A DNA stretch of 64,000 nucleotides from contig NZ_CP049037.1 of NCBI RefSeq assembly GCF_011040495.1, positions 1,736,001 through 1,800,000 of the forward strand. The letters are read 5' to 3'. The translations under genes and the position numbers were made by a program. The stretch comes from Pseudohalocynthiibacter aestuariivivens (GTDB lineage Bacteria; Pseudomonadota; Alphaproteobacteria; Rhodobacterales; Rhodobacteraceae). How positions within the stretch are numbered: position 1 is the first letter of the stretch; every line of letters starts with the position of its first letter. The notes beneath the pieces are model-generated. The model was not told where the DNA came from. It made no database searches and saw only the letters and a list, made by a program, of their open reading frames with translations. Of this stretch, positions 19,650 to 39,993 are shown one piece after another.

Positions 19650-19965
19650 CCACGAGGCGATCCCCCTTAGATACACAAGATTTATGTATCAGATTTACCC
19701 TCTTCCGTCATCCCATTTTGCACGTCAATCAATATGGACATTGTTGACTCCGGGGGCATGGCCGAAAAATTCATGCTGCTGAAAGTATTTGATTTTCAAT
19801 AATAAAATCACATGGCATCTAGTGGCACTTCGCTCTGCACAAAGGCCATGCAGGCCGAGCTCCGCGTAAACGTGGATATATCAGTCACTGACCCGCCGTC
19901 GTCTGAACCGCCGCGTTGGGAAACGGCTATATTTTGGCTGCCCAGCGCGATAACCGTCCAGAGGA
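19650..19965. other. Intergenic stretch, nothing recognised
   Basis: About 316 bases between the LuxR start and the stop of the RND pump gene. It is AT-richer near 19780-19815 (presumably LuxR upstream DNA). No RNA gene, strong hairpin or coding frame with family resemblance was seen. Confidence 0.5.
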
Positions 19966-24741: not shown

Positions 24742-25203
24742 ATGTTCAACTCAACCTTCAAACAGACCGTTCTTTCCACTCTTGCTGCAACTGTCGTTGC
24801 AACCAGTTTCTCGATTAACCCGGCACTTGCCGGTGGTGGCGGTGGCCGTGATCCAGCCGAGCGGGTCAGCACCATCTCGACGGTCAATCCTGACGGCAGC
24901 AAGACCAGCATTCGGTCGCGCAACGCCGCCAAGACCTTTACCCTCACGCGGACCAAAAACGGCAAGGTCGTCAACAAGAAGCGCATTAACAAAAATCGCG
25001 GAACATTCGTGACCATCCACAACCCGGACGGCACCAGCCGCACGATCACGAAACCCAGCAAGCCTGGTAAAGCGTTCGTCACCATCCACAACGCGGACGG
25101 CACCAGCCGCACCGTCACAAAACCCAGCAAGCCGGGCAAGGCGTTCGTCACCCTGCACAACGCGGACGGCACAAGCACCACCATCACTGGCGCTGACCGG
25201 TAA
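24742..25203 (+). CDS. small secreted tandem-repeat protein
   Basis: A 153-residue protein with a clear signal peptide (hydrophobic residues about 9-30, ending NPALA before a glycine run). The mature part consists of five copies of a unit of about 23 residues. The last three are nearly identical (core FVTIHNADGTSRT followed by TKPSKPGKA) and the first two diverged. The mature protein is very basic. I do not recognise the family; the NxDG turn with alternating threonines suggests beta-hairpins. A purine-rich GGAGACAGAAA region precedes the ATG. The ECF sigma gene follows about 195 bases later in the same direction, so it may be a target or sensor part of that system (inference). Confidence 0.75.
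   Translation: MFNSTFKQTVLSTLAATVVATSFSINPALAGGGGGRDPAERVSTISTVNPDGSKTSIRSRNAAKTFTLTRTKNGKVVNKKRINKNRGTFVTIHNPDGTSRTITKPSKPGKAFVTIHNADGTSRTVTKPSKPGKAFVTLHNADGTSTTITGADR
24868..25200 (+). repeat. Tandem 69-bp coding repeats
   Basis: Five in-frame units of 69 bases encode the 23-residue repeats. The three at 25006-25200 are highly similar at base level and the first two are recognisable mainly in protein. The last unit is shortened by the stop codon. Confidence 0.75.
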
Positions 25204-25220
25204 TGCCCGCGCCCACATTC

Positions 25221-25267
25221 ACCGTTCGGTCTGATGATCCAAATCAGGTTCTTGATGACCGAACGGT
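25221..25267. promoter_or_regulatory. Perfect 11-bp inverted repeat between the repeat-protein and sigma-factor genes
   Basis: ACCGTTCGGTC (25221-25231) pairs perfectly with 25257-25267 over a 25-base loop, just after the repeat-protein stop. No T run follows, so it could be a transcript-stabilising hairpin, an attenuator or an operator. Confidence 0.45.
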
Positions 25268-25397
25268 AGAAATAGGGGCGTTATCTTGGCCCGGATTTCA
25301 ATCAGGATCCCACCGCCCTCAGGCTCCATGCCGGCGCTTGGGATCACGGTGTTTGCAGGGGGCTGCGCTCCCTTCGACGACACCTCAGGAGAAGACC

Positions 25398-26051
25398 ATG
25401 ACTGCGATGACTGCGACGCCCACTCCTGTTTTGCTCTGCACACCATACTTGGTTAAAGTGATGCTGTGGATAATGGCGGGGTTGGGAATGTCAGAGGATG
25501 ATGATCAGCGCCAGCTTGAGAGAGTCGCCAATGGTGACCGGCAGGCCATAGGCCTTCTCTACCAACGTTACCATAAACGGGTGTTTCACTTTGTTCGACG
25601 TTATGTCAGCGACGTTGGAGCCGCCGAGGACCTCACGAATGATGTCTTTATAGAGGTTTGGCAGAAGGCTTCGGCATATGAAGGCCGTTCCAAAGTTTCC
25701 AGCTGGTTGCTGGGCGTCGCCAGATACAAAGCCCTATCAGAAGTTCGCAAGAAAAAGCCAGTTCACTCAAAGTCCGGTGAGATACTGGATACACTGGAAG
25801 ATGACGCAGATGACCCGGAAATGGTTTCTCAAAAGCGCGATAAGGGAACAGCGATCAAGCGTTGTATGAGAACGCTATCGCGCGATCATCGGGTGGTTCT
25901 GGAACTGATTTACTACCATGAAAAATCTATCGAGGAAGTTTCAGAGATACTCGATATTCCGAAAAACACGGTAAAGACCCGGACATTTCATGCGCGCAAG
26001 CAACTGTCTGCGGAAATGAACGCCCAAGGTCTTGATAGGGGGTGGCCATGA
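25398..26051 (+). CDS. ECF-type RNA polymerase sigma factor
   Basis: A 217-residue sigma-70 family protein of extracytoplasmic-function type. Region 2 spans about residues 50-115 (LYQRYHKRVFHFVRRYVSD, then AAEDLTNDVFIEVWQKA) and region 4 about 160-212 (IEEVSEILDIPKNTVKTRTF). AGGAGAAG four bases before the ATG at 25398 fixes the start; the frame is open further upstream but without such a site, and an ATG at 25488 would give the usual ECF N-terminus. The stop overlaps the anti-sigma start (ATGA at 26048-26051). It should direct polymerase to its own cluster when released. Confidence 0.92.
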   Translation: MTAMTATPTPVLLCTPYLVKVMLWIMAGLGMSEDDDQRQLERVANGDRQAIGLLYQRYHKRVFHFVRRYVSDVGAAEDLTNDVFIEVWQKASAYEGRSKVSSWLLGVARYKALSEVRKKKPVHSKSGEILDTLEDDADDPEMVSQKRDKGTAIKRCMRTLSRDHRVVLELIYYHEKSIEEVSEILDIPKNTVKTRTFHARKQLSAEMNAQGLDRGWP

Positions 26052-26710
26052 GCACTCTGAGCGAGAGAGAAAAACAAGAAGTGTCACTGCTGCTGCCTTG
26101 GTATGCGAATGGAACACTGAACAGCGAAGACAGCCGCAAAGTTGAGGCCGCGCTGGCTCAGGATGATGCGCTTGCCCGGGAATTTGACCTTGTACTGGAA
26201 GACCAGATGGCCGTGGTCGAGCTGGTTTCCGAAGAAGAGGTTCCCGTTTCCATGGCTGAACGGTTCAAGGCGGCGCTGAATGCCGAACAGGATGAACCAG
26301 CAACAAGCGCGAGACCGCGTGAAGCGGGTGAGAGCCTGATAAATCGCATTATTTCCGTTTTGTTTCCGGCCAGACCACGCGCCTATGCTGTTGTCGCCGC
26401 TGTGTTTATTTTGTTCGCACCGGCGGTTGTGATATACTCAATCGTGGTCGGAAATCATCAGACGGGCCAATATCAAACGGCTTCCGGAGAAGAGGAAACC
26501 ATCCTCGGGAAAACGCGAACGCTGGTCAAATTCAATTCCGATGCCGTTTGGACTGACATAGACGCATTTCTAAGCGAGAATCGCGGCCAGATCGTAAAGG
26601 GGCCGACCCCGGACGGACTTTATGAGCTGGCGTTTGAAAAGGCTGATAAGCTTGCCGAAAAAATGGCGACTGAGACCGGTATTTTTGAATTCGTTTTACC
26701 TGCGAACTAG
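26048..26710 (+). CDS. transmembrane anti-sigma factor
   Basis: A 220-residue membrane protein translated from an ATG that overlaps the sigma-factor stop. The N-terminal about 75 residues form the predicted cytoplasmic sigma-binding part (LLPWYANGTL resembles the zinc-less anti-sigma helix bundle start). One membrane helix lies around residues 110-132 (AYAVVAAVFILFAPAVVIYS). The C-terminal about 80 residues are extracytoplasmic and read as a small alpha-beta domain (TLVKFNSDAVW ... GLYELAFEK ... FEFVLPAN). That tail resembles the propeptide of the subtilase encoded next, see findings. It presumably holds the sigma factor until an envelope signal arrives. Confidence 0.82.
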   Translation: MSTLSEREKQEVSLLLPWYANGTLNSEDSRKVEAALAQDDALAREFDLVLEDQMAVVELVSEEEVPVSMAERFKAALNAEQDEPATSARPREAGESLINRIISVLFPARPRAYAVVAAVFILFAPAVVIYSIVVGNHQTGQYQTASGEEETILGKTRTLVKFNSDAVWTDIDAFLSENRGQIVKGPTPDGLYELAFEKADKLAEKMATETGIFEFVLPAN

Positions 26711-26734
26711 GCCACGCCGGAAGAGGAGAAAAAC

Positions 26735-28126
26735 ATGCCTGATAGATTAGTCCATTCATCCATCCGTTATGTTGGAATTCTGATGTTCGTCTACGCGATT
26801 GCAATACCGGTGCCATCTGCGCATGCCGACGGCGGGCGCGGCCCCGAACCCAGCCTCCATTCCAAACCTTCGACGAGTGCTTCAACATCTCAGGCTCCTG
26901 CGATATCCTATGGCAAAAAGAAAAGTGCCACGGCGCAGACCGAGGTGAGCACCTCACCCAAACCGAAGCGGCAAAGCCGAAAACCAGCCCCGCGAATTGT
27001 TGAATCCGGCCCGAGCGGGCAGCCACCTGCCGGTGAGTCCCGGTTTGTCGTTGACGAAGTGATCGTCCGGTTTCAGCTTTCGTCGACCCCCGGTGCACAA
27101 CTTCGGGCGATCCGCGGTCTGGGCATGACCCATCTGAACGCGCGAACGTTCTTTTTGGCCGGTGTCACGGTGCATCGCTACCGTTTGCCCGCAGGCATCG
27201 GCGTCCAGGAGGCCATCACACAACTAGAGGCAAATGCTGCCGTCGTGAATGCCCAGCCGAACTATCTTTATTTTCTTCAACAGGATCAGAGCATCAATAA
27301 ATTACCCCAATTCGGCAATGACAGGGTGCATTTGAGCGACGCTCATGCAACGACAAAAGGAGCCAACATCCGCATCGCAATAATCGACACGGCGATTGAT
27401 GGAACGCATCCGGAATTTTCAAACTCGAACATCTCGTCATTTGATGTAACCGATGATGGCGGCAACGTCGATCCGCACGGCACATCCATCGCAGGTATAT
27501 TGGCTGCAGACGCAAAACTGACAGGTGTCACGCCAGAGGCAGAGATTATCAGCATTGCCGCCTTCTCCAAGGATGCGTCAGGCAACACCGTCGGAAATAC
27601 CTGGACAGTTCTCGAAGCCACGAATGTGGCCCTCAAGCAGGGTGTCGATATTTTGAACATGAGCTTTGCAGGCCCTGCCGACCCATTGCTTGAACAAGCG
27701 ATGAATGGCGCCAAAAAACAAAACATTCTACCCGTTGCTGCGGCAGGGAATGAAGGGCCCGAGGCCGCAACACTATTTCCCGCCGGTTATGACGCGGTGA
27801 TTGCTGTGACTGCGCTCGATAGCGAAAACAAGATATACTCCAGAGCCAATATAGGGGAACATGTTGACATATCCGCGCCCGGTGTAGGCCTCTTGGTTTT
27901 GGGAAATTCCTCCGGCTTTCGGACCTCATCGGGCACTTCGATGGCAACGGCCTATGTTAGCGGAATTGCTGCGCTAATATTGTCTGCAAATCCAGGGACT
28001 GACTATTCGATACTTCGATCAATGCTGGAAAACAGTTCCACTGATCTGGGCGAGCCGGGCAAAGACCGTGTTTTCGGATCTGGCATTCCCAACGCTGCGG
28101 TGGCCATCGTCGGCTTGAATAACTAA
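26735..28126 (+). CDS. secreted S8 family serine protease (subtilase)
   Basis: A 463-residue subtilisin-family peptidase. A signal peptide (about 1-31, ending AHADGG) is followed by a low-complexity Ser/Thr/Pro/Lys linker (about 32-100), an inhibitor-like propeptide (about 103-180, ending AQPNYLYF), and the catalytic domain. The Asp is in IAIIDTAIDGTHPEF, the His in DPHGTSIAGILA and the Ser in GTSMATAYVSGIAAL; the oxyanion Asn region is AAAGNEGPEAAT. The triad is complete. AGAGGAG lies upstream. It is the third gene after the sigma and anti-sigma factors with a 24-base gap, so it is likely their target, or the protease that acts on the anti-sigma factor. Confidence 0.93.
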   Translation: MPDRLVHSSIRYVGILMFVYAIAIPVPSAHADGGRGPEPSLHSKPSTSASTSQAPAISYGKKKSATAQTEVSTSPKPKRQSRKPAPRIVESGPSGQPPAGESRFVVDEVIVRFQLSSTPGAQLRAIRGLGMTHLNARTFFLAGVTVHRYRLPAGIGVQEAITQLEANAAVVNAQPNYLYFLQQDQSINKLPQFGNDRVHLSDAHATTKGANIRIAIIDTAIDGTHPEFSNSNISSFDVTDDGGNVDPHGTSIAGILAADAKLTGVTPEAEIISIAAFSKDASGNTVGNTWTVLEATNVALKQGVDILNMSFAGPADPLLEQAMNGAKKQNILPVAAAGNEGPEAATLFPAGYDAVIAVTALDSENKIYSRANIGEHVDISAPGVGLLVLGNSSGFRTSSGTSMATAYVSGIAALILSANPGTDYSILRSMLENSSTDLGEPGKDRVFGSGIPNAAVAIVGLNN

Positions 28127-28360: not shown

Positions 28361-29368
28361 TCAGGCGTTCGTCATCAGGTTGGAACGGTCCAGAGAGCGG
28401 CGCATACCATACAATTCGCTATCACGGCTTTCCACGCGGGCAATTGCCGCCTTTGTTGCGCGTCTGAAGTTGAGCTTTGGCGCAGTCTTTAACGTCAGCG
28501 GCTCTCCCACGATTAACGCCGTAGGGATTTCCCGGAGACACACAAGCGGCAATTTTCTCGTTTGCAAGCGCCCCAGCATTCTCGCCTCCAATTCTGCTGA
28601 AGTGGCACTGCAAGCACCAGTTACAGCGCTTAAAAAGGTGCCGTTGCCCACATGGGTCAAAAACGTTCTCTTCGAGTCAAAGTGTTCGACTACGACGCCT
28701 GCGACAGTTTTCAGGAACCCGACGAAATCTGCGGGGCTCGTGTTTGCGAATATCTCATCGATTCGACGAACTTTGATTGCGATCAGATCAATCGTGCACT
28801 CATCCGTTCGCGTGACCTGTTCTAGGTAGTTCTGGAAAACCGACAACGACATGATTTGTTCACTTACGATTTCAGGATCATCCGCCATCACCGTGCTACT
28901 GGCGCTCCTATCTCGCAATGTGGCTGGCAAGAGCGGCTTCCCTCGGGCGCTATTCTGAGCAGCGAAGTAGCTATCAATCGCCGCTTGACGTTCCTGAACC
29001 AATCGTTCGGCGATCCTGATGCGTGTCAGAACTTCAAAGAACTCGTATGGTTTGGTAATGTAGTCAGTAGCTCCTCTTGAGAATGATTTCTCAATTGCAC
29101 GGCGATCCTTGTGCCTTGTGATCATTATGATCGGTGTACTGGCGTATCTAGGCAGCCTCCGGATCTCAGCGCAGAGTTCGATACCGTTTTTTTCGGGCAT
29201 GTCCACATCCAGAAGGATGCATTCGTACGCAATGGCTGTTTCGGTTAGTCTCTTAATTGCGTCGTTCGGAGATGAGAGAAGGGACACGCACTCATATCCC
29301 CCTTCAGAGAGACATTCACCGAGCAAATCCAGTGAAAGTATATCATCATCGACAGCCATTATTTTCAT
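28361..29368 (-). CDS. response regulator: receiver plus degenerate GGDEF-like domain (copy 1)
   Basis: A 335-residue protein. The receiver domain spans residues 1-120: acidic pair in AVDDD, phospho-acceptor Asp in CILLDVDMPEKNG, Thr in MITRHKD, Lys in DYITKPYEF. A linker follows. The C-terminal about 170 residues have the rhythm of a GGDEF domain (DLIAIKVRRIDEIF as the metal-site strand, THVGNGTFLSAV where active enzymes have GG[DE]EF), but the catalytic motif is replaced by GNGTF. It is therefore unlikely to make c-di-GMP. AAGGAGA precedes the ATG. Two further copies with the same architecture lie at 29750 and 33489. Output and partner are unknown. Confidence 0.85.
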   Translation of the reverse strand: MKIMAVDDDILSLDLLGECLSEGGYECVSLLSSPNDAIKRLTETAIAYECILLDVDMPEKNGIELCAEIRRLPRYASTPIIMITRHKDRRAIEKSFSRGATDYITKPYEFFEVLTRIRIAERLVQERQAAIDSYFAAQNSARGKPLLPATLRDRSASSTVMADDPEIVSEQIMSLSVFQNYLEQVTRTDECTIDLIAIKVRRIDEIFANTSPADFVGFLKTVAGVVVEHFDSKRTFLTHVGNGTFLSAVTGACSATSAELEARMLGRLQTRKLPLVCLREIPTALIVGEPLTLKTAPKLNFRRATKAAIARVESRDSELYGMRRSLDRSNLMTNA

Positions 29369-29749
29369 TACGTTTCTCCTTTTGTGTCGATTTAGAAACT
29401 ATTGGCATCTCGTCCATCGCGGGTAGCCACTAGGTTGCTAACTTCTATCCGGGCAAGTTGGCCAAAATATGAACTGCTCTGATTTTCATTGCGTAGTGCG
29501 CATGTCGTTTGGATAAAAGACTTTTCCCAGCCCAACCCGTCATACGTGTGGTTCCTCGACATCAGATTGGGGCGGAAATTTGACGGGAATCTTGGCCGGG
29601 AAACTCGCTCATAGATAAAAACCATTTATTTACAATTATCTATGAGATTTCAAAGCCGACTCGAGAACCCTCACCAAAACCTAAAAATGGCCATGATCTC
29701 TCGCTAGGGGTGAGTAGGAGTACAAGTCGCGTAACTTGGGAGCAAATAA
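29369..29749. other. Divergent gap between two response-regulator genes
   Basis: 381 bases, AT-rich in the last third, with no coding frame of any family resemblance. It contains the perfect inverted repeat listed separately and should hold promoters for both divergent genes. Confidence 0.5.
29608..29646. promoter_or_regulatory. Perfect 11-bp inverted repeat in the divergent regulator gap
   Basis: CTCATAGATAA (29608-29618) and TTATCTATGAG (29636-29646) are exact reverse complements, 17 bases apart, about 100 bases before the rightward response-regulator gene. The position suits an operator or a leader hairpin. Confidence 0.5.
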
Positions 29750-30766
29750 ATGCGAATTCTGTTGGTCGATGACGACCTGATCTTCAGCGAGCTATTTACG
29801 GCAAAGCTTGCCGCGCAGGGTTTCACGCAGATTACTGTAGCGTCTTCGGCAGAAGCGGCATTAGAGCTGGTAGATCAGCAGCAGCACAGCTTCGATTGCT
29901 ACCTACTGGACATAGTGCTCGGTGAAATGGATGGAATCGAGCTTTGCCGCCAATTGCGACAACGCATAGAGGCGCGCACGACGCCGATCATCATGATTAC
30001 ATCCAAGCAAACCTCGCATTCAATGGACGCAGCATTCGCAGCCGGAGCGACAGATTTCCTAAGAAAGCCCCTGAATGAAGTCGAGATAGCCGGACGAATC
30101 AAGACAGCAATGTTTTTGGTGGAAGCGACCAACAGGGAAAAACGCACGCGAAAGGCGTTGAAGGCGCTTGTATCATGCGGAATCGATGTGGAGGTAATCG
30201 ATCCAAACGAGAAAGTGTGCTTTTCCGACGTACCCAATATGCTTGATTACTACCAGCTTGAGAATCGCATGCTCCGGCTCGACAAAGGGCATTACCAGTT
30301 GAGCGTGTTTCGCATCCGGATCGCAAGGTTCCGGGAAATCAGCAAACTGGCCGATCCTATGAAACTGGTGGCGAGGTTGCACTCAGCGAGCGTTCAGATT
30401 TCAGAGGCGGCCTCATCTGGAAAAATGCTATTTTCCTATATTGGACGCGGCCGGTTTATCTGCTGTGTTATGGGGCGTGAAACGAGGGTATCTGGAGTGT
30501 TCGAAAATTCGAACCAGATTACGATCGGGAACCGTATACGGGACCTTGGGCGTGACGATGGCGATCCCCACAGCCTCGAAATCAAAGCTCTGTCCGAGCG
30601 CACCATTCTGCAACGAGACGCCATAGTATCGCTGATTCGCAGTGAATACCGCATGGTCAGTTCATTCGTTCAGGAAACCCTCCCGGAGATAGACATGATA
30701 GAAGATCAGATTTTTGCCAAAGCCCTAGCCGCCGAGAAGGAAGCACCCCAAGTTGAGGATTTGTGA
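29750..30766 (+). CDS. response regulator: receiver plus degenerate GGDEF-like domain (copy 2)
   Basis: A 338-residue relative of the divergent gene. Receiver residues about 1-122 include LLVDDD, CYLLDIVLGEMDG with the phospho-acceptor Asp, ITSKQ and DFLRKP. The C-terminal domain again follows the GGDEF pattern (LSVFRIRIARFREISK, then SYIGRGRFICCV), but the motif is GRGRF, so cyclase activity is not expected. GGGAG precedes the ATG. The 66-base gap to the convergent LuxI-like gene shows no strong terminator. Confidence 0.85.
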   Translation: MRILLVDDDLIFSELFTAKLAAQGFTQITVASSAEAALELVDQQQHSFDCYLLDIVLGEMDGIELCRQLRQRIEARTTPIIMITSKQTSHSMDAAFAAGATDFLRKPLNEVEIAGRIKTAMFLVEATNREKRTRKALKALVSCGIDVEVIDPNEKVCFSDVPNMLDYYQLENRMLRLDKGHYQLSVFRIRIARFREISKLADPMKLVARLHSASVQISEAASSGKMLFSYIGRGRFICCVMGRETRVSGVFENSNQITIGNRIRDLGRDDGDPHSLEIKALSERTILQRDAIVSLIRSEYRMVSSFVQETLPEIDMIEDQIFAKALAAEKEAPQVEDL

Positions 30767-30832
30767 CTGCGGCGTTCCGTACTGGTCCAATATACCTGTT
30801 TCGCAGAACAGCACGCCGAGAATAGGACGTGG

Positions 30833-31705
30833 TCATGTGCTAACTTGAGATTGAACCTGACCTACATATGTCATAGCCGCTCGTTCCGAATTGTTTTCAT
30901 GCGGCTCTTCAACATTCATCAGAGCGGCTTGGATCTTGTCACCGTCGATGCTCATTGCCGCCCCTACGGGGGTGGCGCTCATCCCGATCCGCTTCATCCA
31001 GCGGCTAAAGACAGCAGGCACGATCCCGATGACCGACTTCGCCCCCAACTCTCGTGCTGCGGCAGCCATTTGCTTCAGCAGAATTGACTGAATAAGCAGA
31101 CGCCGCTTAGAACCAACTGTCGGCGAGACAAAAAGCCGTGTCGCTTCCCATATCTCGGGTCGAACCGGTGCATCTAGGAATAGTATGTCTCGCGGGATGT
31201 TCTCAAGCAGTCCCCTCTGCGCATCCCGCAGCATGTAGCTGTATTGACCGCATTTGGCTGTTGAGGGAAGTAACCGCATTCCCGCAAGAATGCGGCCGTG
31301 CTCGTGGATCACGATCCAGCGACATTGCGGCGTGTCATATTGGTCAAACTCCATGCCTTCAGTCTGAGGCAGCTCCCAGCCCTTGTGATCAATGAAAACT
31401 TCCCTACGCGCCCTAAGATAGTTTGCGCAAAGCGTTCCGTATTGATGCATGTTTGCAAACGAAAGCGTTGTTCCCTGTACTTCGCGAGTCAGATCGGACA
31501 TTGGTTGTCCAAACTGGTTTTGCCCATGCGGAACTTCGTCGTAACCAACCAGAGTTACAGCTTGTGGTTGTGCAACGTGATTGGGAAGTTCCAATCGACC
31601 CCGATATTTTCGTAGTGCGTATCTCGCTACACCCATGCCTGCCCCCGTTGAAAAATCTCCTATAAATAAACCAATGGTTGCAATAAGTAGCCTTATTTCT
31701 GCCAT
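30833..31705 (-). CDS. LuxI-like acyl-homoserine-lactone synthase with N-terminal extension
   Basis: A protein of about 290 residues whose central part carries the autoinducer-synthase pattern: LRARREVFIDHKGWELP followed by GMEFDQYD, then a strand ending GRILAGMRLLPS. The invariant Arg, Phe, Trp, Glu, Asp and Arg positions of the LuxI family are all there. Family members make acyl-homoserine lactones from S-adenosylmethionine and acyl carrier protein. About 85 extra residues precede the usual start and include a hydrophobic stretch (IRLLIATIGLFIGDF), which may be a membrane anchor. The ATG at 31705 is chosen, with low certainty; the frame is open to a TTG at 31825, and ATG 31501 would give a classic-length enzyme. 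No LuxR gene is adjacent. It is divergent from a histidine kinase. Confidence 0.75.
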   Translation of the reverse strand: MAEIRLLIATIGLFIGDFSTGAGMGVARYALRKYRGRLELPNHVAQPQAVTLVGYDEVPHGQNQFGQPMSDLTREVQGTTLSFANMHQYGTLCANYLRARREVFIDHKGWELPQTEGMEFDQYDTPQCRWIVIHEHGRILAGMRLLPSTAKCGQYSYMLRDAQRGLLENIPRDILFLDAPVRPEIWEATRLFVSPTVGSKRRLLIQSILLKQMAAAARELGAKSVIGIVPAVFSRWMKRIGMSATPVGAAMSIDGDKIQAALMNVEEPHENNSERAAMTYVGQVQSQVST

Positions 31706-31726
31706 GATCAAGAGGCAAAATGCGTT

Positions 31727-31751
31727 CACATGCTGAGGCACCCTACATGTG
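31727..31751. promoter_or_regulatory. Short inverted repeat between the LuxI-like and kinase genes
   Basis: CACATG (31727-31732) and CATGTG (31746-31751) face each other over 13 bases in the 119-base divergent gap. It is shorter than and unlike a canonical lux box, so function is only suggested by position. Confidence 0.25.
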
Positions 31752-31824
31752 TGGCTTCTGGATTCGCGCGTAACCTCAAAAAGCCTCATGTTTGTAGCAA
31801 ATATCTGCTTCTGCAGGGTGGACA

Positions 31825-33258
31825 ATGTCAGTTAAAAAATTCTATCAGCTAAGCCTTCGCAACAACCGAAACCTGTTTCGTCTGAATGCTCAGATGACGG
31901 ATTATGCTCGAACCGGTGTGGCCCTTCTGCCACAGAGGCTGGCAATTTACATCGCTGCGCTATCACTAGTTGGGTTTTATTACAGCAGCTTAGTGGCCAT
32001 AGTCTGCGGCGGATTCTTAATCTTATCAGAACTGTTTGATCTGCTGACATTCCGCAGGATTTTGCGGATGAAAAAGCGCGACATAGCAGACACACGTTTG
32101 AACATGAGACTGCTGATGATTGCCACGGCAGTAAGCGCAGCAAACATCGCGGTCTTCACAGCAGCTATCGCCCACCTGCAAGGACCAACGTCACACTTCA
32201 TGCCACTGTTCTTCCTGTTCGCAGCCGGTCTCTTTGCGACGATGAACAACCATCAGTTGAAACCGATCCTACATCTCCGCCTCAGCTTCTATTTTGCGGT
32301 ATTTTTCTTCATCCCGCTGTCGGACATCATAAGCACGAGCGCGCCATTCTCCTCTGAGTTGTGGGCGGAGTTCCTGACGAGTATATTTGTCATGTTCTTT
32401 CTGGTTGATTGCTCGCGCATCTCAACCGGACTGTATGACAAGACTCTGGTGCAGATGGAGGAAATCAGGCAGGAGCACGAAAAGGCTAAATCCGCCTTCG
32501 TAGCAAAATCGGATTTTCTGGCAACAGTCAGTCACGAATTGAGAACGCCGCTGACGTCGATCAAAGGCACGCTCGACTTGGTCGATTACGGTGCCTATGG
32601 CGAAGTGCCCGAGAAGATGAAGGGAGCACTGTCGATTGCACAGCGGAATGCCGGCCGACTGAACGCCCTGATCAACGACCTTTTGGACCTGCAAAAAATA
32701 GAAGCCGGCCGCATGTCCTTTCAGTTTGGCACTATTGGATTGGCGGATTTCTTGGTTCAGGCTGTTGCATCCAACCAACCGTTCGCAAGCAAGTTCAACG
32801 TAACTTTCGTTCTCGAGGATGTACCCCAACATCTGTTCATATACGTAGACGAAGCACGGCTGCACCAGGTGATGTCCAACATCCTGTCAAATGCAGCCAA
32901 GTTCTCGAACCCCGGCGATGCTGTTACAGTCACTTGCCAAGACAGAGGCGACACAGTTCGAATTTCAATAATTGACAGGGGAATAGGCTTATCCGAATCT
33001 GACCGTCAGATTGTGTTTGATGAATTCAGCCAACTTGATTCCTCTGACCGGCGAAAAGTCGGCGGAACTGGCCTTGGCATGAACATCTCCAAACGCATCA
33101 TCAACGCACATTCTGGCGTGCTGGACTACTTTCGAAACGAGGGCGTCGGAACCACCTTCTACGTGGATCTACCTTTGGTTGACGCTGACAACGAATCCGT
33201 CTCGGAAGAGGCACGAGTGCTTTTTTCCAATGAACATCATGAAATGCAGCCCGAATAA
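31825..33258 (+). CDS. membrane histidine kinase with six predicted helices
   Basis: A 477-residue sensor kinase. Residues about 35-205 contain roughly six hydrophobic segments with almost no periplasmic loops, so the signal may be lipophilic or intramembrane. The HisKA domain has the phospho-acceptor His in FLATVSHELRTPLTSIKGTL (about residue 237). The ATPase domain has the N box NILSNAAKFSNP, a G1 box (IIDRGIGLSE) and G2 GGTGLGMNI. It ends without a receiver, so it must phosphorylate separate regulators; candidates lie on both sides. GGGTGG lies before the ATG, and it is divergent from the LuxI-like gene. Confidence 0.9.
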   Translation: MSVKKFYQLSLRNNRNLFRLNAQMTDYARTGVALLPQRLAIYIAALSLVGFYYSSLVAIVCGGFLILSELFDLLTFRRILRMKKRDIADTRLNMRLLMIATAVSAANIAVFTAAIAHLQGPTSHFMPLFFLFAAGLFATMNNHQLKPILHLRLSFYFAVFFFIPLSDIISTSAPFSSELWAEFLTSIFVMFFLVDCSRISTGLYDKTLVQMEEIRQEHEKAKSAFVAKSDFLATVSHELRTPLTSIKGTLDLVDYGAYGEVPEKMKGALSIAQRNAGRLNALINDLLDLQKIEAGRMSFQFGTIGLADFLVQAVASNQPFASKFNVTFVLEDVPQHLFIYVDEARLHQVMSNILSNAAKFSNPGDAVTVTCQDRGDTVRISIIDRGIGLSESDRQIVFDEFSQLDSSDRRKVGGTGLGMNISKRIINAHSGVLDYFRNEGVGTTFYVDLPLVDADNESVSEEARVLFSNEHHEMQPE

Positions 33259-33488
33259 CTGGGCGCAAATAGGGCGGCACAATCAGGCCAACGGCTTGTA
33301 GTCTTGCTATCCACTCAGAAAATCCCTTTCTTTCAGCAAATTGCCATGCTTCCAATCAAACGAAGAATTTTAATCAATTTTTGCCATCTGCCCTATTTTT
33401 GACAGGTTGTTCTGTACAACTACTTACACGCTATGCGGGCATACCCTGATGTTGTTGCACCGGGGAAGTGATAGAAGGCTACGAAACA

Positions 33489-34475
33489 ATGAAAATTCTT
33501 GCTGTCGACGACGACCCAATAATTCTCGAACTGCTCACGGAAGTTCTCCGGGTTGTTGGCTTCACGGACGTCACGATATGTGAATCAGCTAAGGAAGCCA
33601 TTGAGACCATAACTCAGAGTGAAGTGCCTTTTGATTGCTTTCTCTGCGATATCCAGATGCCGGAAATGGACGGCATCCAGCTGACCTCTGCGATCCGGAA
33701 ATTGCCGGAGTATGTTTCGACACCGATCCTTATGATCACAGCGATGTCCGACCGATCATATATTGATAACGCATTCGCAGCGGGTGCCACTGACTATGTG
33801 ACCAAGCCATTTGAAATCGCAGAGGTGCATGCCCGTATGCGCCTGTTCAGTGAGCGTGATGCTGAACGCAAACTGTTGGAGGACCGTAACCCGGTCCCAA
33901 CACCGGGACATCCTGCTGGAACTGTCACACAGGCCGAACTTGCCGCGCGCATCACCCCATCAGACGTGACTGGCTTCATCGATTACCTGGCGCTCGAAAA
34001 CTACCTGCTGCAGTTTTCACGCATATCTCTTTTTGGAATGCGCGCATTTGGCGTCGTCGTTCCAGAATTGGCGCGTGCTTATGAAGCAAGTAGCGCGTAC
34101 GAATATCACGCCACGATCACGGACTTTGCAGAAGCTATTTCGGATTGCCTGAAGTCGCGTGGCTTTTTCGCATCCCATGCGGGGGCCGGTGAATTTGTTT
34201 GCGTACTCACAGACGGAAGTGCCTTCGATCCGATCGAGTTTGAGAAGCAGCTATGCGACACTGTCCGCGAAATGGACCTACATTATTGCGACGGTCGACC
34301 AATGACACTCCTACCCGTTGTCGGCGGCACAAAGGGCTTCCAGTTAAAATCGGCGCAGGAGGCCCCGAAAATTCTGGTGCAGGCGCTGTCGGATGCAGAG
34401 ATGATAGCGAGAGATCCGCATGCTGCGACACGCGAAGCATTGCCTGGACCGCTGCAACGCTTGTTTGCATCATGA
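33489..34475 (+). CDS. response regulator: receiver plus degenerate GGDEF-like domain (copy 3)
   Basis: A 328-residue third copy of the same two-domain type. The receiver (about 1-120) starts MKILAVDDDPIILELLTEVL, with phospho-acceptor Asp in CFLCDIQMPEMDG, MITAMSD and DYVTKPFE. The C-terminal domain ends its core with SHAGAGEFVCVLTDG, so the GGDEF position is GAGEF: the last two residues are kept but the first glycine pair is broken. AGAAGG precedes the ATG at 33489; a GTG at 33468 is in frame. It is followed closely by the Hpt gene, suggesting one transcript. Confidence 0.85.
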   Translation: MKILAVDDDPIILELLTEVLRVVGFTDVTICESAKEAIETITQSEVPFDCFLCDIQMPEMDGIQLTSAIRKLPEYVSTPILMITAMSDRSYIDNAFAAGATDYVTKPFEIAEVHARMRLFSERDAERKLLEDRNPVPTPGHPAGTVTQAELAARITPSDVTGFIDYLALENYLLQFSRISLFGMRAFGVVVPELARAYEASSAYEYHATITDFAEAISDCLKSRGFFASHAGAGEFVCVLTDGSAFDPIEFEKQLCDTVREMDLHYCDGRPMTLLPVVGGTKGFQLKSAQEAPKILVQALSDAEMIARDPHAATREALPGPLQRLFAS

Positions 34476-34491
34476 TAATCTGGAATTTTTG

Positions 34492-34842
34492 ATGAGCGAC
34501 GTTATGATCAATAGTGTATCCAGCGGCATCGCGCGTATCCGGTTGCGCTTTGCCGAAGAATCTCAGGACAGACACGATCTGTTGGTAAAACTGAGGGCAC
34601 AGATGAATAACGATATGGCCTGTCAGGAGGCCATCGTTGAGATCGGAAAGATCAGTCACAAGATTGCTGGCACGGCAGCGACCTTGGGTTACCCCGATCT
34701 CGGAGAAGTCGCAGCTGCGGTCGATGATCACATCGACCAAAAGGATATGGCATCCCGTATTCCCACGGGAGACCTCGTTACAATCATTGACCGGTTGATC
34801 GCTGAGATCGCCAAAGTAAAGAAGCAGTCAGAGCATGGTTAG
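34492..34842 (+). CDS. Hpt (histidine phosphotransfer) domain protein
   Basis: A 116-residue single-domain protein. ISHKIAGTAATLGYPDLGEV near residue 60 is the typical Hpt helix with the phosphorylatable histidine and the following glycine. Hpt proteins shuttle phosphoryl groups between receivers in a relay. It starts 16 bases after copy 3 of the response regulators and 90 bases before a CheY-like receiver, so it probably connects the receivers and kinases of this cluster. An ATG four codons later is an alternative start. Confidence 0.8.
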   Translation: MSDVMINSVSSGIARIRLRFAEESQDRHDLLVKLRAQMNNDMACQEAIVEIGKISHKIAGTAATLGYPDLGEVAAAVDDHIDQKDMASRIPTGDLVTIIDRLIAEIAKVKKQSEHG

Positions 34843-34931
34843 ATTGATGATAAGCATCTATGATCATTAAAAATAACTAACCAATTCGGAGCGCTGGATA
34901 CACTCGAAGTTTACTGAAAGCGGAGTATGAT

Positions 34932-35324
34932 ATGATTGAAATTCTTCACGTCGAAGATGATGCCGACATCAGGGAAATTGCCCTTATAGCGTTGTCGTTG
35001 TCTGGCGAATTTAGAGTAGTCCAGTGTCCTTCGGGCGAAGATGCGGTTCGGCAAGCTCAAGGTTACACGCCGGATGTTCTCTTGCTTGACGTCATGATGC
35101 CCGGCATGAACGGTCCCGAAACCCTAGGACATCTTCGCAAAATCCCCGCCATGATCGATGTGCCTGTCGTATTCATGACAGCGCGCGCTCAACAGAGCGA
35201 TGTCGATCAGCTTCTCAGCTTGGGCGCGGCGCATGTTATCAGCAAACCGTTTGATCCTCTCCTGCTCGGCGAACAGGTCAAGGGCATCATCCAAGAACAC
35301 ACGCCGTGGAAGATCGCAGTCTAG
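34932..35324 (+). CDS. single-domain response regulator (CheY-like)
   Basis: A 130-residue receiver without output domain. The acidic cluster is in HVEDDADI, the phospho-acceptor Asp in VLLLDVMMPGMNGPETL, the conserved Thr in FMTARA and Lys in ISKPFDP. Such proteins act through protein contacts or as phosphate relays or sinks. An Hpt gene lies immediately before and a multi-PAS kinase after, in the same direction, which supports a relay role. Upstream purines (GAAAGCGGAGTATGAT) give a plausible ribosome-binding site. Confidence 0.88.
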   Translation: MIEILHVEDDADIREIALIALSLSGEFRVVQCPSGEDAVRQAQGYTPDVLLLDVMMPGMNGPETLGHLRKIPAMIDVPVVFMTARAQQSDVDQLLSLGAAHVISKPFDPLLLGEQVKGIIQEHTPWKIAV

Positions 35325-35502
35325 AGCATTCAAGCCAGCGAGCAGAACAGGATAGATAGAATATTCTGCAAAACCAAAAATAATGCGGCTGTCGCTCTAT
35401 CTTTTCGCGTAAATGAGCTTAGCAATGAGGCAAGGTTTGACTAGTTTTCCCGCACATATAAATGAACCATGCCTTACTACTTTGAAGAGGCGGCATAGTT
35501 CC

Positions 35503-37350
35503 ATGGTCACAGACACACACAAGCAGAAGTCGGCAGATTCTGCTATAATTCACGCCTTTAAGCATATGCAAGTGCCGTTAATGATCGTGGAGCCAAGCGG
35601 CACAATTCTTCATAGCAATAGAGCTGCGGGTCAGTTGTTTGGTTATAGCGACGATAACCTCAGTAAGCAGATGATTTTCGATGTTCTGCCCGTCGATTCC
35701 GTCAAAGAGTTGAACGCTTACATCCCACCCGGTGATTTCGACGCCATAATCAAAGGGATCATCGGGCGACGGCAGGATGGAGCCTCGGTGCTGCTCGCCA
35801 TCCATTTAACAGCATGGACCGACGAAAATGGAGCGATACAGCATGCACTTGTCCTTCGCGACATCGCAGAGGAGATGGAAGCTGATCGGGTCAGAAAAGC
35901 AGAGATGAAGCGCGCGGATAGCGCGATCAAAGGAGCGAGAATCGGAGTCTTCGAATTTGATGTGAAAACACAGTCAGTCTTGGTTTCCGATCTCTGGCGC
36001 GAATTGATGGGCCTAGAACAGACGCCGACGAAAGAACTCCGGATGGCATGGATGGCTAGAATTCACCCGGCTGATCTCGAGATCGCGATGGAGCCCATCC
36101 GGCGTTGTGTCGATGAAGGTCACGAACGTGCCAGTTCCGAGTATCGCCTGCGATCAACAGATGGAGAAAGCTGGCGCTGGATGCGAACAGATTTGGCGAT
36201 AGCCAAGCGCGATAAGAGCGGCGAGACAAGCTGTGTAGTCGGCGCCGCAACGGACATCACCGAGCGCAAGGCCGTGGAAAGCACCTATCACAGGATCGCC
36301 GAACAGTTCAGATCATCATTCGAAGCTGCAACCATTGGAAAAGCTTTGGTCGGCGTCGACGGCCAGTTCCTGAAGGTAAACCGATCACTTTGCGAGCTTC
36401 TGGGCTACTCAGAAGACGATCTGTGCAAAATGGATTTCCAGTCAATCACCCACCCTGAGGATCTGGAGCTAGATCTTAACCAGTTCGATCTTCTCAAAAG
36501 AGGCAAGATCCCATCCTATAAAAGGGAGAAGCGATACATACGTTCGGACGGCACCGTGCTGTGGGGGCTGTTAAGTGTCGGGATGATTACCGATGCCGAA
36601 GGTCAACCTGAACATTTTGTGTCTCAGATCGTGGACATAACCGATCAGAGACGGCTGAACGAATTAAAGAGTGAGTTTGTCGCGACAGTGAGCCACGAAC
36701 TGCGAACCCCCCTGACATCGCTGCTGGGATCATTGACCCTATTTTCAGCGATGGAAGGTGCCAACTTATCGGATGGCGCGCAAAGGCTGGTGTCGATCGC
36801 GGAAGAAAACGGGAAGCGTCTAAGTTCATTGATCAACGATATCTTGGATTTTGAAAAATTCTCCGCCCGCCAAATGAGCATTAATGCAGCCCAGCACGAA
36901 GTCGCGAGCCTGATCGATGACGCAGTGTTAGCCAATCTGCCGTTTGCGGAACAATTCGGCGTGAATTTCAACGTCACCTGCCGCGAAAGAAATCTGGCAG
37001 GCTTTTTCGACCCCAAGCGGTTTCAGCAAGTCCTCTCGAATTTTCTGTCTAACGCAGCCAAATTTGCCGATGAAGGTAGCACAATCGACATTCTAGTCGA
37101 AGCAGAGAAACATAATATCCGTGTGTCGGTCAGTAATCAGGGCGCTGGCATTCCCGAGTCGTTCAAGGATAAAGTGTTTCTGCCCTTCACCCAAGCGGCC
37201 CCCGTTGCCAAACGCAGGCGTGGTGGAACCGGTCTTGGCCTCAGCATCACTAAGCAAATCGTCGAACAAATGGGCGGCGATATCGGTTTCAAAAGTAACG
37301 ACGGAGAACCGACCACATTCTGGTTCACACTTCCACAAAATATGACTTGA
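35503..37350 (+). CDS. cytoplasmic histidine kinase with three PAS domains
   Basis: A 615-residue soluble kinase with no membrane helix. PAS 1 is at about 20-125 (IVEPSGTILHSNRAAGQLFG), PAS 2 about 145-260 ending in a PAC segment (VVGAATDITERK), and PAS 3 about 265-385 (GQFLKVNRSLCELLGYSEDD). HisKA has its histidine in FVATVSHELRTPLTS (about 393). The ATPase domain has the N box NFLSNAAKFADE and GGTGLGLSITK. There is no receiver. The ATG at 35503 is preferred; an ATG at 35413 would add 30 residues without PAS character. It ends the rightward signalling set and is followed by a mobile element. The signal is unknown. Confidence 0.88.
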   Translation: MVTDTHKQKSADSAIIHAFKHMQVPLMIVEPSGTILHSNRAAGQLFGYSDDNLSKQMIFDVLPVDSVKELNAYIPPGDFDAIIKGIIGRRQDGASVLLAIHLTAWTDENGAIQHALVLRDIAEEMEADRVRKAEMKRADSAIKGARIGVFEFDVKTQSVLVSDLWRELMGLEQTPTKELRMAWMARIHPADLEIAMEPIRRCVDEGHERASSEYRLRSTDGESWRWMRTDLAIAKRDKSGETSCVVGAATDITERKAVESTYHRIAEQFRSSFEAATIGKALVGVDGQFLKVNRSLCELLGYSEDDLCKMDFQSITHPEDLELDLNQFDLLKRGKIPSYKREKRYIRSDGTVLWGLLSVGMITDAEGQPEHFVSQIVDITDQRRLNELKSEFVATVSHELRTPLTSLLGSLTLFSAMEGANLSDGAQRLVSIAEENGKRLSSLINDILDFEKFSARQMSINAAQHEVASLIDDAVLANLPFAEQFGVNFNVTCRERNLAGFFDPKRFQQVLSNFLSNAAKFADEGSTIDILVEAEKHNIRVSVSNQGAGIPESFKDKVFLPFTQAAPVAKRRRGGTGLGLSITKQIVEQMGGDIGFKSNDGEPTTFWFTLPQNMT

Positions 37351-37561: not shown

Positions 37562-38849
37562 TGGGCACCTCGATTTTTGACTGTTTCTGCTCGGGTGTTG
37601 TGCTGTCAGCCGCATGAGGCGCGCGTGTTGTCAGCCGATGTCGCCTTGGAGCGCCCCAAGGCCTACGGCCCCCCGCCTTTGATGTGTTGCTTTTCCGGCC
37701 GTGCGGCCTGATTTCCGCGCCCCGGGGTCACGCCGGGCACGGGCTCAGGCGTCGCAACTGGCCGAGACGTCGCATATTGTAGGCGAGGTTCGTCATCCCG
37801 ATCTTCGCCTTGGCCCGCACCATGCCAATCGTGCGCACCAGCTTGCCACCCATGTCGTTGGCCTGCGCGCCGAAGACATGCTCGACCCGCGCGCGCACCG
37901 CGGATTTCGTCCTGTTGCTGCCCTTGGCCTGTTCGGTCAACGGCTTGCCGCGTCTGCCCTTGCGGTGGATGTGGCTCTTCAATTTCAGGGCGCGCAGCTT
38001 GGTCTCTATCTCCTCGGATCGATAGGCCGGATCCGCCCAGACACCGGCGCCGGTATTGTTCCGCGTCAACAGGTGGTCCACCGCTTGGCTGTCGTGCAGG
38101 GCGGCATCGCTGACGTGGTAGCGGCGCACGAGCTTGTGCTTGCGGTCCACATTCACGTGGTTCTTGTAGCCGTAATGGCTCTTGCCATGTTTCTTGGTCC
38201 AGCGCGCATCCACATCCTTCTGACTGCGCTTCGCTGGCTTGTCGGCCCAATCCTCGGGCACCTCTCCGTTCTTGATCGCCTTGTTCTCATCGCGCGTATT
38301 GTGATTGCGAGGCACCGGAACGATGGACGCATCCAGGATCTGGCCGCCCCGCGCGATATAGCCCTGCCGCGACAGATAGTCGTCGAACTGGTTGAACAGC
38401 GCCTCGACCATGCCCGCCTGCGCCAACGCCTCGCGATACAGCCACACCGTCTTGGCGTCCGGCACACGATCCTGCAGGCCAAGCCCAAGAAACCGCATGA
38501 ACGAGAGCCGGTCGCGCACCTGGTACTCGATCTGGTCGTCGGACAGGTTGTAAAGCGCGCTCAGCACCAGCGTCTTGAACATCAGCACCGCATCCATGGG
38601 CTTGCGTCCCGCGCGCGACTTGCGCTCCGCATCGGGCTTGCGCCAGACTCGCTCCAAGGTCGGGCGAAACTCTTCCCAGGGCACGACGGCGTCGATCTCG
38701 ACCAGCGGGTCCTTCTTAGCGTCCAGACTCGCGTAGCGGTCTGAAAGATCAAAGAAACCCATCTGCGTCATCGTTACACCCCAAGCCGCGGAACACCCCG
38801 GCCGTCATACCGCAGCGGCAAGGTCAGGGCAATTTTTCGAGGCGCCCAA
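37562..38849 (-). mobile_element. IS5-family insertion sequence
   Basis: The element is about 1.29 kb. The left end TGGGCACCTCGA (37562-37573) matches the reverse complement of the right end at 38838-38849 at 11 of 12 positions, giving terminal inverted repeats around the transposase gene. No clear target duplication is visible; two bases (AC) flank both ends. The transposase is intact, so the element may be active. It lies between the PAS kinase gene and the FadL-like gene and disrupts neither visibly. Confidence 0.75.
37728..38771 (-). CDS. IS5-family transposase
   Basis: A 347-residue DDE transposase of IS5 type. It opens with MGFFDLSDRYASLDAKKDPL and has a typical N-terminal RAGRKPMDAVLMFK segment. 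The three catalytic acids are seen in LDASIVPVP, WADPAYRSEEIE and RVEHVFGAQ. The frame is full length, and base composition (very GC-rich) differs from the AT-rich signalling genes to its left. It cuts and pastes the surrounding element. A long open frame on the opposite strand is a shadow of this gene. Confidence 0.95.
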   Translation of the reverse strand: MTQMGFFDLSDRYASLDAKKDPLVEIDAVVPWEEFRPTLERVWRKPDAERKSRAGRKPMDAVLMFKTLVLSALYNLSDDQIEYQVRDRLSFMRFLGLGLQDRVPDAKTVWLYREALAQAGMVEALFNQFDDYLSRQGYIARGGQILDASIVPVPRNHNTRDENKAIKNGEVPEDWADKPAKRSQKDVDARWTKKHGKSHYGYKNHVNVDRKHKLVRRYHVSDAALHDSQAVDHLLTRNNTGAGVWADPAYRSEEIETKLRALKLKSHIHRKGRRGKPLTEQAKGSNRTKSAVRARVEHVFGAQANDMGGKLVRTIGMVRAKAKIGMTNLAYNMRRLGQLRRLSPCPA

Positions 38850-38886: not shown

Positions 38887-39993
38887 ATGAAATCTTCGAT
38901 GCTGACAGCTAGCTTCGCGCTGGCCCTCACCCTTAACCCTGCTTACGCAGGGAACCTTGACCGCACGAAAACGCCGATCGACATAATTTTCGAGCAGGGC
39001 AGCTATGCGGAACTGTCATTTGGTTTTGCCATGCCCAGCGTGACTGGGGTCGATAGTCTGGGTAACGCTATCTCAAACGTAGGAGCCGACATAAGTGCGA
39101 TAGGCGCCGGTTTGAAGCTGCAATTAAGTGACCATTTCTCACTCGCGATAATTTATGACCAACCTTACGGAGTGGACTTGGAATATGGTGGCAATCCCGC
39201 GACCACCCTTCTCGGTGGAACCATGGCCAAAGCCGAGTCCGATGAGCTGAAGATACTGTTCCGTTATGGGATCACGGATCGCATTGCCGTCTATGGCGGC
39301 CCGCGGATCGTCGGAGCGGATGGGAACATCACCTTGTCGGGCCTCGCATATGGCGGGTTGAACGGATACAACGCCCGATTTTCGAGCGACCAAGGACTTG
39401 GCTATGTGCTTGGCGCCGCATACGAAATCCCGGAAATCGCTTTTCGAGCGGCGTTGACTTATCATTCCGAAGTCGAACTGAACATGCAGACCACCGAGAC
39501 CTTCCCCGGCGGTGCCCCCGCAGCAACCGGATCCACCAAATCGACTTTACCGCAATCCGTAAAGCTTCAGGTGCAGTCCGGCGTTGCCCAGAACACCTTG
39601 CTCTTCGGCAGCATACGTTGGTCTGAATGGAGCGTGTTCACATTGAACCCGCCAAGCCCTGCTCCCAACCTAGCTTCAATGGTCGATGCCTGGACTTATG
39701 AGATCGGAATTGGATACCGTTTCTCTGACAAGTTTTCGGCGAGCGTGACCTACAGTTATGAAGATGAGGAAGGTAACAATCTCGTATCGCCGCTCGCACC
39801 GAATTTCGGAAATCAATCGCTAACATTGGGCGGCAAATACCAAGTAACGGATCAACTCAGTCTTGCGGGCGGGGTGAAGTATACTTGGTTGGGTGATGCT
39901 TTCCCTGTCACCAATCCTCCGAATACCCCCCGCGCAAGCTTCAGCAACAACGATGCGATTAGTGTTGGCGTTAAAATGGGTATGAGCTTTTGA
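38887..39993 (+). CDS. FadL/OmpP1-like outer-membrane protein
   Basis: A 368-residue beta-barrel protein with a signal peptide (MKSSMLTASFALALTL, then NPAYAG) and alternating aromatic and polar strands that end in MGMSF, with the C-terminal phenylalanine typical of outer-membrane barrels. GYRFSDKFSASVTYSYEDEE and a similar strand pattern match the FadL family, which lets hydrophobic molecules such as long-chain fatty acids cross the outer membrane. It starts 38 bases after the IS5 right end, so its native promoter may have been displaced. Some FadL proteins also admit long-chain acyl-homoserine lactones (known for Sinorhizobium), which is interesting near a LuxI-like gene. Confidence 0.82.
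   Translation: MKSSMLTASFALALTLNPAYAGNLDRTKTPIDIIFEQGSYAELSFGFAMPSVTGVDSLGNAISNVGADISAIGAGLKLQLSDHFSLAIIYDQPYGVDLEYGGNPATTLLGGTMAKAESDELKILFRYGITDRIAVYGGPRIVGADGNITLSGLAYGGLNGYNARFSSDQGLGYVLGAAYEIPEIAFRAALTYHSEVELNMQTTETFPGGAPAATGSTKSTLPQSVKLQVQSGVAQNTLLFGSIRWSEWSVFTLNPPSPAPNLASMVDAWTYEIGIGYRFSDKFSASVTYSYEDEEGNNLVSPLAPNFGNQSLTLGGKYQVTDQLSLAGGVKYTWLGDAFPVTNPPNTPRASFSNNDAISVGVKMGMSF

Follow-up and report, generated by a model that had tools for sequence, protein, structure and literature searches.

How does a bacterium perceive an N-acyl-homoserine lactone (AHL) when the gene for its predicted synthase stands beside that of a membrane histidine kinase? Soluble LuxR proteins are generally regarded as the receptors of AHLs, and a membrane kinase acting as an AHL receptor is not known to be established outside the vibrios. 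The question is posed by a cluster of eight signal-transduction genes in Pseudohalocynthiibacter aestuariivivens, contained in a stretch of 64,000 nucleotides (hereafter the window; contig NZ_CP049037.1, positions 1,736,001 to 1,800,000) and encoding a LuxI-type synthase, a six-transmembrane histidine kinase (HK1), three regulators with a receiver and a GGDEF-like domain (RR1 to RR3), a histidine phosphotransfer (Hpt) protein, a lone CheY-like receiver and a second kinase with PAS domains (HK2). On the basis of comparative sequence analysis, we think it fairly probable that HK1 is a membrane receptor for acylated amino acid esters, in this case the AHL of the adjacent LuxI, and that the locus constitutes a LuxR-independent quorum-sensing module with a phosphorelay. 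We put at about even the chances of a broader proposal, namely that the six-transmembrane kinases, so far known from Rhodobacteraceae only, constitute a novel class of receptors through which N-acyl amino acid esters are read in quorum sensing, and that their cognate synthase has switched two times or more between LuxI (AHL) and a FeeM-type synthase plus methyltransferase. Such a family-wide module, in which exchangeable synthases stand next to the membrane protein that probably detects their signal, would be of more interest than the preliminary description of this locus stated, and the occurrence of the same kind of detector with another synthase in relatives suggests that compounds without a settled job may also be signals.

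The proposal starts from the HK1 sensor domain, whose 221 N-terminal residues can be aligned over 26 loci with R38, E69, D72, N142, R152 and W180, among others, invariant. Six long helices precede the kinase core, as hydropathy and a predicted model both indicate, in agreement with the six-helix kinase of the preliminary description. When the 26 sensors were scanned singly, Pfam yielded only scattered weak matches (10 families, each in one member; the best, DUF6056, at 1.4e-4), the window's own sensor reached at most 16.4 bits against a cut-off of 31.4, and NCBIfam likewise gave nothing convincing. A search of the PDB with the sensor returned no chain up to E 5, and the 50 best structural matches of the HK1 model were kinase entries only, so that this comparison is uninformative on the sensor. 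Among 390 Rhodobacterales genomes, a profile of the sensor found 82 matches in 80, every one of which belongs to the family of the window; in a wider sample of the phylum it found 9 of 398 genomes (E up to 1e-6) and in a sample of the class 2 of 385 (E up to 1e-5), family members only in both cases. In the sampled genomes, the six-transmembrane sensor is thus a family known solely from Rhodobacteraceae. Searched with the whole of HK1, 20 of 148 other family genomes contained a match at E ≤1e-60. Among named genomes, relatives were found in Roseovarius and Sulfitobacter, and two further matches, from other phyla, covered the kinase part only.

These kinases are paired with one of two synthases. 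Among the matches listed for the Rhodobacterales sample, 52 of the 82 sensor kinases have a LuxI no more than 8 kb away, 16 have a strong FeeM-type N-acyl amino acid synthase in that range, and none of the 82 has both; a LuxI neighbour would be expected by chance at an estimated ~0.8% per kinase, assuming about two LuxI per 4-Mb genome. The LuxI set consisted of the best 150 matches listed, and strong FeeM denotes the 17 entries with E <1e-30, weak matches (E >1e-10) being left uncounted. Seen from the side of the synthase, 16 of the 17 strong FeeM genes in the 80 sensor genomes adjoin a six-transmembrane kinase. Among 149 family genomes, strong FeeM occurs in five and stands beside a kinase in four (G006, G050, G128 and G135), three of which are also among the 80, and among 84 genomes of the window's genus nine strong copies occur in seven genomes, seven of the nine beside a kinase.

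The kinase tree indicates that the synthase changed while the kinase stayed. It comprises 107 kinases, of which 82 come from the order-wide sensor search, 7 from loci fetched for their FeeM and 18 from HK1-query searches only; the unbiased frequencies are therefore those of the 82 sensors. One further locus, L041, matched in the kinase core alone and had no sensor, and was dropped. The tree was inferred by maximum likelihood with a quick search, is unrooted, contains one long branch (L126) and carries support only from the Shimodaira-Hasegawa-like approximate likelihood-ratio test (values in brackets). The 18 kinases labelled FeeM-only form one clade (100). A second clade (100) unites the six whose FeeM is accompanied by a PEMT-type methyltransferase, and it sits within LuxI-paired kinases, with L063 and L023 as its sisters (99 and 97). 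On this unrooted tree the LuxI/FeeM label requires two changes, whichever way the swap went. Of five columns that are type-specific by the chosen threshold, four lie in the sensor. Position 143 is H in all 69 LuxI-paired kinases and S in all 18 FeeM-only kinases, while position 124 is H in 66 of 69, in 14 of 18 and in none of the six FeeM+PEMT kinases. Each FeeM type being a single clade, these residues count as one event each.

The FeeM loci share a second feature. A class I S-adenosylmethionine-dependent methyltransferase lies beside FeeM in 18 of 18 FeeM-only loci (7 of them fetched for their FeeM, not for the methyltransferase), the two reading frames being within 26 bp in 16 loci and ~240-250 bp apart in 2, and a PEMT/ICMT-type membrane methyltransferase lies beside it in the other 6 of 6 FeeM loci. 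Neither of these kinds, the only two sought, occurs in any of the 69 LuxI loci. That two unrelated methyltransferases have been joined to the same acyl synthase family points to a methylated product, and since AHL lactones and N-acyl amino acid methyl esters (NAMEs) are both uncharged N-acyl amino acid esters, a receptor family common to them is chemically sensible. Roseovarius tolerans EL-164, which has a published genome (LGVV00000000), is one producer of NAMEs. In Loktanella and in L036, FeeM has yet another methyltransferase beside it; this belongs to PF04445, which we take to be an rRNA-type family, and was not counted. Locus L142 holds a second copy of FeeM plus methyltransferase, with two receiver/GGDEF-like genes and no six-transmembrane kinase.

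The module also occurs on named plasmids, with 12 records matched and four inspected. In Loktanella salsilacus (two strains; L147 and L150) the plasmid carries a regulator, Hpt, the six-transmembrane kinase, an ICMT-type methyltransferase and a FeeM annotated as an acyl-homoserine-lactone synthase, set on either side of ParA/ParB-like genes; the module can therefore reside on extrachromosomal replicons. The record of Sulfitobacter sp. OXR-159 has a class I methyltransferase, FeeM and the kinase, and that of S. pontiacus has luxI divergent from the kinase; luxI stands beside a six-transmembrane kinase in the named Sulfitobacter loci L045-L047 and L149.

The window's own synthase is of the LuxI type. 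It scores 64.2 bits with PF00765 (Autoind_synth; cut-off 24), and its best PDB matches are the AHL synthases 3p2f (5.6e-15), 6wn0 (1e-11) and 1ro5. When residues are numbered from position 31450 and compared with the 68 other LuxI of the fetched loci, R15, F19, W25, E34, D36, D39, R59, E102 and R105, which we take to be the catalytic signature, are at least 95% conserved. It is the one convincing LuxI of its genome, a second PF00765 match (28.6 bits) having been rejected because it scores 67 as Acetyltransf_5. The sole LuxR with an Autoind_bind domain found in the genome is distant, at C1:464886; its stretch (L052, gene at 1264-2019) contains no luxI, and its neighbours resemble tsf and aroQ by eye. 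Within the window itself, a LuxR-family helix-turn-helix (GerE) regulator at 18651-19676 has no recognised AHL-binding domain.

The remaining genes suggest how a signal might be passed on. RR1 to RR3 retain D7/D8, D54, T84 and K106 of the receiver, the phospho-acceptor box of HK1 is HELRT and that of the Hpt protein is HKIAG. The C-terminal halves of the three regulators give no Pfam GGDEF match. An AlphaFold model of RR3 (mean pLDDT, the predicted local distance difference test, 77.6, from an 11-sequence alignment) nonetheless has receiver-GGDEF cyclases (WspR, DgcR, PleD) at Foldseek ranks 1-15 with both domains aligned, albeit with template-modelling scores of merely 0.35-0.40, presumably owing to a different placement of the two domains; for RR1 and RR2 the likeness was seen by alignment only. 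The motif GG[DE][EQ][FL] is present in 0 of 108 related receiver proteins, 99 of which have GxGxF, and this, together with the Foldseek likeness, supports the earlier view of these domains as dead GGDEF. None of the 107 sensor kinases has a receiver of its own, and none is thus a hybrid. In 21 of the 36 loci that have Hpt (L041 counted), its gene comes immediately after one for a receiver/GGDEF-like protein, and of the 35 sensor loci with Hpt, 34 have a GGDEF-like regulator and 28 a lone receiver. Hence the simplest order, and a plausible one, would run from HK1 to the receiver of an RR, then to Hpt and then to a second receiver.

Taken together, these features suggest the following mechanism. 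LuxI would make an AHL, probably with a long chain, which HK1 would detect in the membrane through its six-transmembrane sensor, a member of a family that would read N-acyl amino acid esters, namely AHL lactones here and probably methyl esters in the FeeM-type relatives. The ligand would shift the balance of HK1 between kinase and phosphatase, and phosphate would pass to the receiver of RR3 (and/or RR1 and RR2) and then via Hpt to another receiver, for instance the CheY-like protein. HK2 would probably feed a cytoplasmic, PAS-borne signal into the same Hpt. The GGDEF-like domains, without their catalytic motif, would presumably act by binding a partner and not by synthesizing c-di-GMP.

The preliminary description had suggested a search for the gene order in other Rhodobacterales. 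The full eight-gene order does recur in Roseovarius aestuarii (L042), and the block RR1-RR2-luxI-HK1-RR3-Hpt is shared by all five loci of the clade that includes the window (support 98), so that the genes cannot be called never co-conserved, yet there is no fixed eight-gene unit. Synthase plus HK1 is the only general core (93 of 107 loci). Within 6 kb of the 107 kinases, a GGDEF-like regulator is found near 72, a lone receiver near 41, Hpt near 35 and a second kinase near 31; all four occur together in 14, which include both synthase types.

Several observations weigh against HK1 as the AHL receptor of a phosphorelay module. Neither LuxI nor FeeM lies near 14 of the 82 sensors, a number that was still 14 when these loci were rechecked with profiles built for this analysis. 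FeeM also occurs without a nearby six-transmembrane kinase, in G010, in G422 (the 17th strong FeeM, with PEMT beside it and no sensor) and in two of the nine genus copies, one of them at a contig start and the other accompanied by two receiver/GGDEF-like genes. The type-specific residues rest on one clade each, and the clade of 18 keeps H124 in 14. With Hpt at just 35 of 107 loci and the GGDEF-like regulator at 72, the relay as drawn is not general. The NAME part, our boldest claim, concerns relatives of the window's locus, and NAMEs have been reported to lack quorum-sensing or quorum-quenching activity (PMC4582587) and, in the accessible text of a more recent paper, to play no role in AHL signalling (PMC11580390); the published tests may not have covered a kinase receptor. 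The same text states that NAME synthase genes were not known in 2024.

The adjacency of synthase and kinase would be equally expected if HK1 controlled synthase expression upon another cue. In that case HK1 would sense some other membrane or environmental signal and govern luxI transcription through the relay, leaving the AHL to an unlinked LuxR. The divergent arrangement of luxI and hk1 in the window is compatible with this, a LuxR with an AHL-binding domain is present elsewhere in the genome, and the well-studied roseobacter AHL systems use LuxR, according to the accessible parts of two accounts (PMC3824088, PMC3907830). We nevertheless regard this explanation as rather unlikely, though to be taken seriously, since two changes of synthase type took place with the kinase retained, and the sensor, not the kinase core, holds the strictest of the type-specific substitutions, whereas a sensor of a cue unrelated to the product need not track the synthase type. 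Much less credit is due to an accidental cluster in an A+T-rich island, in which HK1 and LuxI are a real pair and the other regulators serve unrelated pathways: the block does contain a transposase (37728-38771) and, beside tRNA-Cys, a fragment of an integrase, and Hpt, the lone receiver and the second kinase are each absent from the vicinity of most related kinases, but the same six-gene block recurs throughout the window's clade, all four relay parts stand together at loci of both synthase types, and on the Loktanella plasmids a few kb separate regulator and Hpt from the set of kinase, methyltransferase and FeeM. It is more improbable still that the LuxI homologue produces some acyl compound other than an AHL and that the system is not one of AHL signalling. 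The LuxI product is predicted from sequence, and GNAT-fold FeeM proteins do replace LuxI in relatives; the window's LuxI, however, scores 64.2 bits with PF00765 against 14 bits for FeeM, its closest PDB relatives are AHL synthases and its presumed catalytic residues are conserved.

The Vibrio relay consists of LuxM, LuxN, LuxU and LuxO, with a hybrid receptor kinase. The proposed module resembles it in having a membrane kinase that would read an AHL and a relay through Hpt, but its synthase is of the LuxI type, its kinase is not hybrid, and there is no LuxO-type regulator among the eight genes; the window's Hpt protein, which has the Hpt domain itself, reached 12.9 bits in a LuxU-type test (cut-off 140, E 0.11). 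The pairs CqsA-CqsS, LqsA-LqsS and PhcB-PhcS likewise combine a signal synthase with a membrane kinase, but the synthases here are LuxI or FeeM type, and the sensors are likened by description, not by sequence. A six-transmembrane design is described for the Vibrio harveyi receptor in the accessible part of PMC4821796. RR3 appears to share fold and domain order with WspR, PleD and DgcR, but the catalytic motif is missing throughout its family. The CckA-ChpT-CtrA pathway of roseobacters, as portrayed in the available text of PMC4046655, is also an alphaproteobacterial phosphorelay tied to quorum sensing, but the window's eight genes include no hybrid kinase and no DNA-binding regulator.

Closest to the window are the orphan luxI genes beside histidine kinases of roseobacters (topologies H, I and J) of Cude and Buchan (2013; PMC3824088), in view of which the earlier statement that no such system had been described was too strong. 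In the accessible text of that paper, a two-component relay was suggested, as was a resemblance to LuxN (up to 26% identity). Its topologies have luxI without an adjacent luxR and a histidine kinase beside it in the same or the opposite direction, which the window fits; the likeness is one of description only, and the same text has no six-transmembrane family, receiver/GGDEF-like regulators, Hpt, FeeM swap or methyltransferases. A study of how two-component quorum sensing evolved (PMC8895600) nowhere uses the words alphaproteobacteria, rhodobacter or roseobacter. Thus, the orphan luxI beside a kinase was already known, while for the FeeM swap, the methyltransferase rule, NAME genes and a NAME receptor we found no account in the accessible text of the open-licence PMC literature, a scope outside which most subscription papers fall.

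Table 1. The eight genes of the cluster and the HK1 sensor domain, in window coordinates.
Feature	Positions	Strand	Basis
RR1: receiver + GGDEF-like domain, GNGTF replacing GG[DE]EF	28361..29368	-	Pfam receiver; fold inferred from paralogue RR3
RR2: receiver + GGDEF-like domain, GRGRF	29750..30766	+	Pfam receiver; fold inferred from paralogue RR3
luxI-type AHL synthase (predicted)	30833..31636	-	PF00765; start estimated from the length of homologues; reading frame extends to 31825
HK1: six-transmembrane histidine kinase without own receiver, proposed AHL receptor	31825..33258	+	Pfam, hydropathy, model
Sensor domain of HK1 (residues 1-221), not convincingly matched in the libraries; type-specific H124, H143	31825..32487	+	
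RR3: receiver + GGDEF-like domain, GAGEF; proposed first phosphate acceptor	33489..34475	+	Pfam receiver, model
Hpt protein, immediately 3' of RR3	34492..34842	+	PF01627 30.2 bits, cut-off 24.6
Single-domain CheY-like receiver, proposed terminal acceptor	34932..35324	+	PF00072 84.4 bits
HK2: histidine kinase with three PAS stretches and no receiver; proposed as second input	35413..37350	+	Pfam

The inventory of the preliminary description holds: all eight open reading frames (ORFs) were recovered in place with the domains named for them, Pfam agreeing on the receivers of the three regulators (335-338 aa), Autoind_synth, HisKA plus HATPase in both kinases, Hpt, the lone receiver and three PAS stretches in HK2, and neither kinase has a receiver. 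Some starts were revised, probably to 33489 for RR3 and 34492 for Hpt, and that of luxI, within a 330-aa ORF, was placed at ~31636, 62 of 69 LuxI-labelled ORFs being shorter than 300 aa. The cluster is indeed richer in A+T than its surroundings, with a G+C content of 0.50-0.52 against 0.52-0.64 elsewhere in the window (2-kb windows), and the module is more A+T-rich than the remainder of its stretch in 102 of 107 related loci. A C-terminal tyrosine-integrase fragment (PF00589; 41512-42067) beside tRNA-Cys near the edge of the A+T-rich region suggests an island; no flanking direct repeats of at least 18 nt were found.

Upstream of the cluster, an extracytoplasmic function (ECF)-type sigma factor, a gene that matches no Pfam family and a subtilase follow in series (25203-28126); they have no match among the ORFs of the 26 loci and were set aside as parts of the module. 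Downstream, a DDE transposase (PF01609) separates the cluster from the gene of a FadL/TodX-type outer-membrane protein (38887-39993), which lies behind this insertion sequence. In rhizobia, FadL has been linked with long-chain AHLs, and a FadL-type protein might perhaps serve here in the uptake of long-chain signals; as it was seen in just 3 of 112 stretches, we make no claim of module membership. Besides the window, these are L043, where a FadL relative follows Hpt, and L141, where another lies near a FeeM locus.

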